The position numbers and the translations under genes were made by a program. 50,879 bases of DNA from Candidatus Thorarchaeota archaeon (GTDB lineage Archaea; Asgardarchaeota; Thorarchaeia; Thorarchaeales; Thorarchaeaceae), in contig JAEOTX010000051.1 in assembly GCA_016839605.1 (NCBI GenBank), positions 1 to 50,879 of the forward strand, in the 5' to 3' direction. Positions within the stretch are counted from its first letter, which is position 1; every line of letters begins with the position of its first letter. Under the pieces are notes generated by a model, which ran no database searches, was not told the origin of the DNA, and saw nothing but the letters and a program-made list of their open reading frames with translations. Below, piece after piece: positions 18,778-37,035 of the stretch.

Positions 18778-18886
18778 TGGTGGGCCGGGGGAGACTTGAA
18801 CTCCCGATCTCTTGCATTCTGTGACTTGAGGCCCTAGGTCCTTAGCCGCCCCAAGCAAGAATCATACCAAGCTAGACTACCGACCC
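18778..18886 (-). tRNA. tRNA-Pro(GGG) with intron, CCA encoded
   Basis: GGGTCGG...CCGGCCC acceptor, discriminator A plus CCA; anticodon arm CTTGC-TTGGGG[intron]T-GCAAG; T-arm GGGAG-TTCAAGT-CTCCC. Confidence 0.92.
18817..18848 (-). other. tRNA-Pro intron (32 nt, canonical 37/38 position)
   Basis: BHB-like fold: TTGG / bulge GG|C / GGCT...AGTC / ACAG / bulge AA|T / GCAAG (central helix relaxed). Confidence 0.8.
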
Positions 18887-30060: not shown

Positions 30061-30166
30061 TGTGCGGCCGCCGGGATTATCTCGACACACGACAGTCGTC
30101 TGCCGATTCGAACCCGGGTTGGAGGCTTGGGAGGCCTCCGTCCTAACCATGCTAGACTACGGCCGC
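30061..30166 (-). tRNA. tRNA-Gly(CCC) with T-arm intron
   Basis: GCGGCCG...CGGCCGC acceptor; anticodon arm GAGGC-CTCCCAA-GCCTC; T-arm CCGGG-TTCGAAT-[30 nt]-CCCGG. CCA not encoded; structural gene is 30063-30166 including the discriminator. Confidence 0.92.
30076..30105 (-). other. tRNA-Gly T-arm intron (about 30 nt)
   Basis: Removing CGGCAGACGACTGTCGTGTGTCGAGATAAT restores a perfect T-arm. Junction is ambiguous by up to about 3 nt because of a shared AAT. Confidence 0.82.
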
Positions 30167-33769: not shown

Positions 33770-34807
33770 GTGTGGTCTTTGATTGATGAAACATTTGAGG
33801 CTATTCAAAACTTGTCTTGGTCTTGCCCCGACTGTTCGGGTCTGGTAACGACCAACCAGGGCTATATAGTATGTGTAGAATGTGGCTTGGTGATTTCTAG
33901 AGAATACGTATCGCCCACCTATCAAATGGGCGAGAAAGTATCTGAAAATGCTCCTGATGCAAGCGTATACGTTTCTCTTGGTAATCGTATGCATATTGTT
34001 GATGGATTGGGAAGCTATATTGGTTTCCACAAGGATAGATATTTCCAAGATGCACAAGGTCAGACTCTCACAGCACGATCTCAAAAGAAGTTCAAGCGGC
34101 TTAAAATGATATACAGTACGCGAATACGGATTGGCAGAAATGAAGCAAAGTACAGAGCTCTCAGAACGCTCAACCATGTTTCAAAACTGCTTATGTTAAA
34201 CGAACAGGTCCGTGATCGTACTGCCTATCTCTACAAGAAAATATCCTCTGAATCTTCAGAGAAGATTAACAACAATATCCTGCTTATTGCCGTATGCCTT
34301 CTAATGGCTGTGAGAGAGTTCAAGGATGGAGCGCCAATAACCTTGGATGAGATAGCTAATACATTCGAGAAGTGCGGTCATCGTGTGAACGTCAGGGCGA
34401 TTGTAAGAGAAGCTCTGAGACTCAAGTCACTAACAGGTGTTGCTCCTGAAATTCGTCGTCCAGATGACTATGTACCAAGAGTCTTGTCTATGTTGATGAA
34501 CAGTGATAAGGTGCTCAAAAAGGTGATAGCTCGTGGATGGGAACCAAAGAAGTATGAGAATGCGCTCAGAGACAAGATCTTTGAAGTTTTAGAGATGATA
34601 CCAGCATCTAAGAGAGGAGGACGAAATCCCTTCATATTCACTGTTTCTGCGGCGTATGCAAGTGATCGTCTAGTTGCAGATGAGCATGGAAAAAGGTCCG
34701 TGCTTACTCAGAAGCTCACTTCAGAGGCCACTGAAGTAGCTGAGTACAGCATTCGTGATCACTTTGGAATGATGAAGAAAGTGATTGCATCAGCTTCTCT
34801 AGCTTAG
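33770..34807 (+). CDS. tfb: Transcription initiation factor TFB
   Basis: N-terminal zinc ribbon CPDC...CVECG; two cyclin-like repeats. Confidence 0.9.
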   Translation: MWSLIDETFEAIQNLSWSCPDCSGLVTTNQGYIVCVECGLVISREYVSPTYQMGEKVSENAPDASVYVSLGNRMHIVDGLGSYIGFHKDRYFQDAQGQTLTARSQKKFKRLKMIYSTRIRIGRNEAKYRALRTLNHVSKLLMLNEQVRDRTAYLYKKISSESSEKINNNILLIAVCLLMAVREFKDGAPITLDEIANTFEKCGHRVNVRAIVREALRLKSLTGVAPEIRRPDDYVPRVLSMLMNSDKVLKKVIARGWEPKKYENALRDKIFEVLEMIPASKRGGRNPFIFTVSAAYASDRLVADEHGKRSVLTQKLTSEATEVAEYSIRDHFGMMKKVIASASLA

Positions 34808-34830: not shown

Positions 34831-36564
34831 TTGAATCATGCTCCTAAAGATGAGGTCAAGAGAATGCGGGAAGATGTACTCAGAGTAATTAGATGTCCGG
34901 ACATAAGATGCAAAGAGTGTTCCGAGCTGGTTGCTCCAGATTGTTCAAAGCTCTCCTTGCTATTGGAAGAGAAAACTAAGGAGAAGGTGATTATTCTGGA
35001 AGCTTCCAGAAGTCTTCTTCATCTTGGGGGAATTTCAGGTCCTATCCCAACCAGGCCGCCTTGGAAAGGAGAAGGATGGGAATCAATTTACATCGGTAAT
35101 CGAGAAGAGTTCCCGGACAAAGATTGGTGTCCTATAGATGCTTACTTGGTTGGGCCGTATCTTTCGTTTTACTTCTCACTGACGAGTGAAAAGGAGGTTT
35201 TTCACCGGTCGTATCCATTGGTGAGGACTTCACTCGAATATGGACTGTTGCAAAAACTAAGTGAATCAATTGAGAATGAATTTCACGAACAAGCAGCAAA
35301 AAGGACTGACATCTCCGTTCGACTCAAGCAAATAGCAAACAACGTTTCCAGAGATATCCTGACATCGCTGCCTGAGATAAGCAAAACGACTCGTGAGAGA
35401 ATCTCTAGAATTGTAGCAAACAAAACAACTGTTCTGGACTCACTTCTCCCAATTCTTTTGGATGATGATGTGGAAGAGGTGTATATGGACCGTCCAAGGA
35501 AGCCTATCTATTTTGACCATTGTAGGTTAGGAAGATGCATTTCTAAATACGAGCTTCATCAGGATGATGTGCCGCGTTTTGCAACACTCCTACGAGCAGA
35601 GAGTAACCTCCATCTTGATAGAAGAAACCCATCTCTCAAAACCGATCTGAATCTGTTAGATATGAATCTGCGAGTTTCTGCAAGCCTGCCACCACTTAGT
35701 CCTGATGGTCTACACCTAGAAATTCGAAGGGCAAGAAGAAGACCATTCACCATACTGGACTTGATACGTAATGGTACACTACCGACCGAGGCAGCAGCAG
35801 CACTTCTCCTTGCACTGGGCTGCAGGTTTAATATAACCATAACTGGAGGGCCTGGAACCGGCAAGACTACTCTATTGAATGCACTTGACTTGGATAGTCC
35901 GAAAGTGTGGAGGAAGATCTATATCGAAGATGCAATGGAAAGTAGAAATCTTGAGAATCATCACCAAGTTCGCTTCAAGGTCGATCCGGTTGATGAGATA
36001 GATGGACATTTTGACAAATCCATAGAGATCGTCAAAACTCTCCATAGGTCTCCAGACTATGTCATACTTGGTGAGATTCAAACTGCAGAACACAGTCAAG
36101 CACTCTTTCAAGCTATTGCCGCTGGTCTTCGTGCAATGCAGACCTGTCATAGTTATTCCGCAGCTAGTCTTATGTCCCGTTGGACTACAGGACATGCTAT
36201 CGAAAAATCAAGTTTAGCCATGATGGATTTGATTGTGACAATGGTACGTCCAGTGCCTGGAGAGTCGATTAGACGAGTCAGTGAAATTGTTGAGGTGCAA
36301 CGTGCGGTTTCAGAAGGAGTTCTCGAGTTCAATGGACTTAGTACGGTCTACAACTATCATTCATCTCAGGATTTACAATGGGTACCTGACGGAGCGTATC
36401 TTTCGTACGCACGAGAAGCTGGGCATGAAAGCCATATTCAGGCATATAACGGAATAGTTGATTCTCTAACTCGAAGTTTGCAGACCTCAGTAAATGATAC
36501 TCACAGAGATTTGGGAGAAGAGATTTGGTCGCAAACACATCCATTGTGGTCTGCAGGAGTCTGA
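34831..36564 (+). CDS. Type II/IV secretion (TadA/FlaI-like) ATPase
   Basis: ITGGPGTGKTTLLNAL, YIEDAMESRNL, YVILGEIQTAEHSQALFQAIAAG; N-terminal Cys cluster CPDIRCKECSELVAPDC; TTG or ATG 34864 start. Confidence 0.88.
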   Translation: MNHAPKDEVKRMREDVLRVIRCPDIRCKECSELVAPDCSKLSLLLEEKTKEKVIILEASRSLLHLGGISGPIPTRPPWKGEGWESIYIGNREEFPDKDWCPIDAYLVGPYLSFYFSLTSEKEVFHRSYPLVRTSLEYGLLQKLSESIENEFHEQAAKRTDISVRLKQIANNVSRDILTSLPEISKTTRERISRIVANKTTVLDSLLPILLDDDVEEVYMDRPRKPIYFDHCRLGRCISKYELHQDDVPRFATLLRAESNLHLDRRNPSLKTDLNLLDMNLRVSASLPPLSPDGLHLEIRRARRRPFTILDLIRNGTLPTEAAAALLLALGCRFNITITGGPGTGKTTLLNALDLDSPKVWRKIYIEDAMESRNLENHHQVRFKVDPVDEIDGHFDKSIEIVKTLHRSPDYVILGEIQTAEHSQALFQAIAAGLRAMQTCHSYSAASLMSRWTTGHAIEKSSLAMMDLIVTMVRPVPGESIRRVSEIVEVQRAVSEGVLEFNGLSTVYNYHSSQDLQWVPDGAYLSYAREAGHESHIQAYNGIVDSLTRSLQTSVNDTHRDLGEEIWSQTHPLWSAGV

Positions 36565-36833: not shown

Positions 36834-36928
36834 CAATTTAATGCCACTAGCAGATTATGCCCCGTGATTTGGGAAAGCCTTATTTGTAATCTGGAGTGAG
36901 CACACCCGCTCCGGACTGGTATGCCTTA

Positions 36929-37035
36929 GCTCCGGTAGATGCTTCATGAAACCATGATGCAACCGTATGTAGTCCGGCCCAGCATGAGGGACTCTCGATC
37001 CCTCGACCCGGGTTCAAATCCCGGCCGGAGCACCA
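36929..37035 (+). tRNA. tRNA-Glu(CTC) with D-arm intron, CCA encoded
   Basis: GCTCCGG...CCGGAGC-A-CCA; anticodon arm AGGGA-CTCTCGA-TCCCT; T-arm CCGGG-TTCAAAT-CCCGG. Confidence 0.94.
36939..36967 (+). other. tRNA-Glu D-arm intron (29 nt, between positions 10 and 11)
   Basis: Exact BHB: helix CGGT/ACCG, bulges AG|A and TA|T, inner hairpin TGC-t-TCATG-AAAC-CATGA-t-GCA; splicing restores GCTCCGGTAG-TGTAGTCCGG. Confidence 0.92.

Follow-up and report, generated by a model that had tools for sequence, protein, structure and literature searches.

A tRNA-Glu(CTC) gene interrupted between positions 10 and 11

The window analyzed here is a stretch of 50,879 nucleotides (nt) on contig JAEOTX010000051.1 of a Candidatus Thorarchaeota archaeon (assembly GCA_016839605.1), a member of the Thorarchaeia within the Asgard archaea. 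The host assembly represents a 3.08-Mb genome that is 80% complete, and our genome-wide negative results are limited to this assembly. Positions 36929–37035 of the forward strand constitute a tRNA-Glu(CTC) gene, which is interrupted by an intron between tRNA positions 10 and 11 and preceded by a short leader element; the gene and its leader are the subject of this analysis. The gene comprises the following parts.

36929–36938, +: 5' exon, tRNA positions 1–10, GCTCCGGTAG; Watson-Crick with the 3' acceptor strand in 45/45 distinct loci, including a change from U3-A70 to C3-G70
36933–36936, +: 5' strand of the 4-bp central helix, CGGT (positions 5–8), read from the sequence and conserved
36937–36939, +: 5' bulge AGA, with the predicted cut between its second and third bases, read from the sequence and conserved
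36939–36967, +: 29-nt intron at position 10/11 with an internal hairpin, missing from the orthologues in the genera labeled g3, g10, and g13 and in part of g7
36962–36965, +: 3' strand of the 4-bp central helix, ACCG, read from the sequence; RCCG in 31/32 loci and GTCG in one
36966–36968, +: 3' bulge TAT, with the predicted cut between its second and third bases, read from the sequence; NNT in all loci
36968–37032, +: 3' exon, positions 11–73, with the anticodon CTC at 36994–36996; BLAST identity of 91–100% in most family members
37033–37035, +: encoded CCA, read from the sequence

We collected 45 distinct tRNA-Glu(CTC) loci by BLAST of the 3' exon in relatives and by one scan of public genome contigs. 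An intron of 26–34 nt was found at exactly position 10/11 in 32 of these 45 loci, which are spread over most genera of the family, and 13 loci were found without it. The sequence GGTAGTGTAG is uninterrupted in the intronless orthologues, which fixes the splice point, and removal of the 29 nt from the gene of the window yields GCTCCGGTAGTGTAGTCCGGCCCAGCAT.., a sequence identical in form to the intronless orthologues of related genomes. The central helix and the two 3-nt bulges, which read [AG]G-N and NN-T, are kept across the 32 distinct intron-bearing loci, and the recurrence of this pattern at the same site indicates that it did not arise by chance. The interior of the intron has diverged, the first 9 nt past the bulge being 36% identical in pairwise comparisons. 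All 32 loci present the properties of a bulge-helix-bulge (BHB) motif of the EndA type: a 4-bp helix, two 3-nt bulges, cut sites within the bulges, and a normal tRNA that cutting would restore. We consider the presence and the position of the intron at this locus to be nearly certain.

The original prediction had read the gene as tRNA-Glu with anticodon CTC, bearing an intron at 10/11 within an archaeal endonuclease-type splice motif and giving a normal Glu tRNA after cutting. Conservation across the 32 loci and the existence of intronless orthologues, which the spliced form matches, bear out these points. The motif had also been described as an exact BHB, which is accurate for the central helix and the bulges and overstated for the remainder, since the outer helix between the exons is weak (mean predicted pair probability, P, of 0.07). 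This helix could consist of C4-G12 and, only past a bulged U13, of U3-A14, C2-G15, and G1-U16, so that the splice motif is relaxed on the exon side. Pairing of the inner helix of the intron in a fixed register is irregular because intron lengths vary, and it yields no clean covariation count.

In the same genome, tRNA-Glu(TTC), the other Glu isoacceptor, is encoded without an intron. A separate intact tRNA-Glu(CTC), which had been named beforehand, together with silence of the present locus, as evidence that would speak against the prediction, was looked for, and the 80%-complete assembly yielded no further CTC gene. ARAGORN fails to call the interrupted gene, and Rfam sets its 5' end at 36959, within the intron. 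A split or permuted tRNA was also considered and was ruled out, as a single strand carries both exons in their normal order within a span of 107 bp. As a separate observation, the anticodon loop of the tRNA-Glu of one relative (genome G011, locus L038) reads CCCTCGA rather than CTCTCGA, which places a C at U33; this is unusual and might be a sequencing error.

A leader element conserved together with the intron

A second copy of the first seven bases of the tRNA, GCTCCGG, is found at 36908–36914, starting 21 nt before the 5' end at 36929, and is followed by ACTGG. The features of the upstream region and the strand that it matches are listed here.

36880–36885, +: TATA-like box TTATTT inside the conserved GGGAAAGCCTTATTTG, kept in nearly all Thorarchaeia orthologues
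36908–36919, +: leader element GCTCCGG-A-CTGG at the predicted start of the transcript, with a proposed role as decoy acceptor strand based on conservation and folding
36920–36928, +: variable spacer between the leader element and the tRNA, with 33–39% pairwise identity
37025–37031, +: 3' acceptor strand CCGGAGC, for whose pairing the leader copy and the real 5' strand are predicted to compete, from folding

The 12-nt leader consensus GCTCCGG-R-CTGG was present with at most two mismatches in 32/32 intron-bearing loci, 19–25 nt 5' of the tRNA, and was intact in 0/13 intronless loci. Pairwise identity reaches 92% over the 12 positions of the leader, compared with 42% for the preceding 12 nt and 39% for the following 7 nt. 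In most loci the leader starts 28–32 nt past the first T of the TTATTT box, which is about where the −26 rule places transcription starts in archaea. A 7/7 upstream copy of the acceptor strand was found in just one of the 22 tRNA genes examined in the host genome, that of tRNA-Glu(CTC).

Comparison of the two copies indicates that the mature tRNA contains the downstream one. This copy is fully complementary to the 3' strand in 45/45 loci, including those with GCCCCGG/CCGGGGC (L014, L035, and L052), and in L035 it tracks the change from U3-A70 to C3-G70 while the upstream copy retains T. Against the 3' acceptor strand, the upstream copy shows mismatches or wobble pairs in L010, L012, L013, L032, L035, and L063. 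The start of the original prediction's span (36908–37035) is not the end of the tRNA: 36908 opens the upstream copy, and the real 5' end is 36929.

The full pattern of intron and leader was identified in 29 of the 47 genomes of the family and in none of 180 other genomes of the phylum; a reversed control pattern was found in 0 genomes. The leader of intronless loci is altered in different ways: it is deleted entirely in G012, where the distance from TATA box to tRNA is down to 38 nt, degenerate in G019 and G027, affected by a one-base deletion in G015, and substituted in G028 and in genus g3. A tree of rpoB distributes the intronless loci over about four positions, each with an altered leader. 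These sequence patterns suggest that the leader, which copies an exon strand, is under selection and that it is lost upon intron loss. Separately, the rpoB fragment L165 of G034, a g3 genome, is nested within g5, pointing to contamination of the assembly; its placement in the tree was disregarded because it clusters with another genus.

Predicted folding of the precursor

We predicted the nearest-neighbor folding of the 32 precursors with their own leader, without a leader, with shuffled leaders, and with the leaders of other tRNAs. When their own leader is present, the leader copy is predicted to pair with the 3' acceptor strand (mean P of 0.96), which leaves the real 5' strand unoccupied, and the splice helix to form (median P of 0.92). 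Removal of the leader lets the acceptor stem form (mean P of 0.96) and leaves the splice helix at a median P of 0.02. The splice helix was predicted with a P of 0.44 for shuffled leaders and of 0.19 for 20 natural leaders taken from other tRNAs of the host genome, the own leader performing better in 31/32 cases. Folding of transcripts truncated ahead of the acceptor strand suggests that the splice helix is in place at that stage and that the leader then tends to pair with the D-loop. One further segment of the tRNA is implicated by the model.

36979–36982, +: CCAG, predicted pairing partner of the leader's CTGG, with a mean pair probability of 0.56

Because the motif uses the 5' acceptor strand, the original prediction had expected splicing to precede or compete with acceptor-stem folding. 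The leaderless model agrees with the expected competition, as it favors the acceptor stem (0.96) and disfavors the splice helix (0.04). The conserved copy of the acceptor strand, on which the prediction had not commented, is the probable answer to this competition.

Processing genes

The host genome encodes RtcB, the RNase P RNA, and a beta-type EndA subunit, and most genomes of the family possess two EndA genes, one alpha and one beta. The alpha subunits present the same Tyr-His-Lys set as the enzyme of M. jannaschii in 24/24 alpha loci checked. In the beta-type subunit of the host genome (L079), Thr replaces the catalytic His and the protein bears an acidic N-terminal extension. Judging by subunit type, this set fits a two-subunit enzyme of the type accepting relaxed motifs, and two-subunit EndA is known to cut such motifs (PMC4090602). 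A single-subunit EndA was first thought of from the lone beta-type gene of the host, and was dropped as relatives have two genes.

A proposed decoy acceptor strand in the 5' leader

We propose, with a probability of roughly 0.6, that the locus is a tRNA-Glu(CUC) gene of the expressed type, and that its precursor transcript has both an EndA-type intron at 10/11 and a 5' decoy acceptor strand. The folding model suggests that the leader, by acting as this decoy, would let the body of the tRNA fold while the splice motif remains accessible to the endonuclease. With somewhat less confidence, we favor the further view that the leader and the gene form a cis-acting conformational switch, in which the built-in decoy would keep the 3' strand occupied up to the removal of the intron and thereby force splicing before 5' trimming, and which would be gained and lost with the intron.

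The proposed pathway has five steps. The spacing from the TATA-like box suggests that the transcript would begin at 36908 or no more than a few bases away, with the leader GCUCCGGRCUGG. The real 5' strand is then predicted to fold locally with the intron, C5-U8 pairing with RCCG, before the 3' half exists. As CCGGAGC emerges, it would pair with the free leader copy, and CUGG with CCAG, giving a tRNA-like body in which the splice motif is kept; in a variant of this step, the leader may pair with the D-loop AGUCCGG first. As expected from what is established for splicing in archaea and from the gene content, EndA would then cut and RtcB would join the exons. Finally, the real 5' strand, which splicing would have connected to the D arm, would displace the decoy, and RNase P would trim the leader; this last step is the least supported of the five, and its driver might be the completed D arm with its tertiary contacts, or RNase P. 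These steps imply that splicing would occur ahead of 5' trimming.

Several points weigh against the decoy. All pairings are nearest-neighbor predictions that ignore tertiary contacts and proteins. The model still favors the decoy after splicing, with a mean advantage of about 5 kcal/mol (from −2.3 to 12.5), so that tertiary folding, RNase P, or some additional factor would be needed for the hand-over to the real strand. The targets of the leader are nearly invariant, and its pairing can therefore not be assessed through compensatory changes. There is an A-C mismatch within the leader pairing in L012, L013, and L032, and the purine at leader position 8 is better accounted for by pairing with the D-loop. 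Regarding the coupling of leader and intron, the rpoB backbone is poorly resolved and its well-supported branches demand only two changes, and in g3 the leader is just partly degraded despite the absence of the intron. The alpha EndA was not found in the host's 80%-complete assembly and is present in relatives; since two genomes of the same genus carry it, this gap is probably due to the incompleteness of the assembly. Finally, 5' processing precedes splicing in Methanopyrus kandleri, even for the D-loop introns of its tRNA-Glu (PMC3695527).

Alternative explanations

It is possible, if unlikely, that the leader acts mainly through pairing of CCGGRCU with the D-loop AGUCCGG (36971–36977), which would enclose the splice motif or mask the D-loop. 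The 7-bp complement is present, leader position 8 (R) pairs with U16 as A-U or G-U in 32/32 loci, and the median P of this pairing is 0.92 in truncated transcripts without the acceptor strand. In the full-length precursor, however, its predicted P is 0.00 compared with 0.96 for acceptor pairing, and we rejected it for that form; it would also leave the invariant G1, C2, U3, and G11 of the leader unexplained. Pairing with the D-loop may rather be an early step of the decoy pathway.

We consider it more doubtful still that the leader plays no part in splicing and is instead a transcription-start element or a remnant inherited from duplication of the tRNA 5' end. The leader coincides with the predicted start site, its spacing from the TATA-like box hardly varies, and the identity of its bases 1–7 with the tRNA 5' strand is what a duplication would yield. 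These properties do not account for a conservation of 92% between flanks at about 40%, for the presence of an intact leader solely in intron-bearing loci, or for the lack of such a copy in the 21 other tRNA genes examined in the host genome.

A dead gene or a retained insert, with CTC read some other way, might explain why standard predictors miss or misplace this tRNA, but it is very improbable given that promoter, exons, CCA, and splice motif are kept across genera and that this is the sole CTC gene found in the 80%-complete assembly. The least probable alternative, a leaderless tRNA starting with the upstream copy and having the downstream copy inside a second excised segment, would yield the same mature tRNA by excision of the 21 nt between identical copies, and we rejected it because the upstream copy mispairs or wobbles in six loci, the downstream one covaries and is perfect throughout, no splice motif suits its boundaries unless U8 is replaced, and intronless genes plainly use the downstream copy.

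Other features in the window

Two further tRNA genes were observed on the reverse strand. The first, tRNA-Gly(CCC) at about 30065–30165, contains an insert of about 30 nt in its T-loop (GGTTCGAAT[CGGCAGACGACTGTCGTGTGTCGAGATAAT]CCCGG), apparently a second non-canonical intron in the window; ARAGORN misplaces the end of this gene at 30091. The second, at 18778–18886, reads as tRNA-Pro(GGG) with an intron at about 37/38 and is called Ser(aga) by ARAGORN when introns are allowed. On the forward strand, a divergent TFIIB-like protein is encoded at 33770–34804, upstream of a secretion-type ATPase (34831–36561).

Relation to known tRNA introns and leaders

The gene shares several properties with the non-canonical EndA/BHB introns of archaeal tRNAs (PMC4090602): a 4-bp helix with two 3-nt bulges, an intron hairpin, a site other than 37/38, and a lineage encoding alpha and beta EndA genes and RtcB. 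The positions given as examples in the text of that work (20/21, 22/23, 25/26, 29/30, 30/31, 45/46, 53/54, 56/57, 59/60, 3/4 "etc.") omit 10/11, and the intron of Thorarchaeia differs in that it comes with a conserved element in the 5' leader. In Methanopyrus kandleri, a D-loop intron is present in each of the two tRNA-Glu isoacceptors (PMC3695527), which thus resemble, by description, our case of an additional D-region intron in tRNA-Glu; the order of processing proposed for Thorarchaeia is the reverse of the 5' trimming before splicing seen there. Introns at non-canonical positions are likewise present in the intron-rich tRNAs of other Asgard archaea, the Atabeyarchaeia and Freyarchaeia, and introns of any position can interrupt over 90% of the tRNA genes in Asgard archaea outside Thorarchaeia, according to the accessible part of the published account, which does not mention leader elements (PMC11291895). 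Split and permuted archaeal tRNAs also rely on base-pairing by leaders (PMC3218864, PMC3978253), but there the pairing builds the splice motif, whereas the gene of Thorarchaeia forms one continuous cis transcript whose leader copies an exon strand and would leave by 5' processing rather than splicing. A literature search, with most subscription journals outside its reach, returned no report of an intron at 10/11, of a leader that duplicates the acceptor strand, or of a conserved decoy leader tied to an intron.

Since non-canonical archaeal introns are well known, the intron itself adds a member to a known type. D-arm introns and non-canonical introns in Asgard archaea are already known as well, and what is new is the conserved leader tied to the intron. 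The 5' leaders of pre-tRNAs are usually regarded as short throw-away sequence, and the single order of processing for archaea in the literature consulted puts trimming of the ends ahead of intron removal. The leader described here makes it testable how a splice motif can borrow the acceptor strand that the tRNA itself needs, and it points to a class of tRNA genes that is missed or mis-ended by predictors in the archaeal group closest to eukaryotes.
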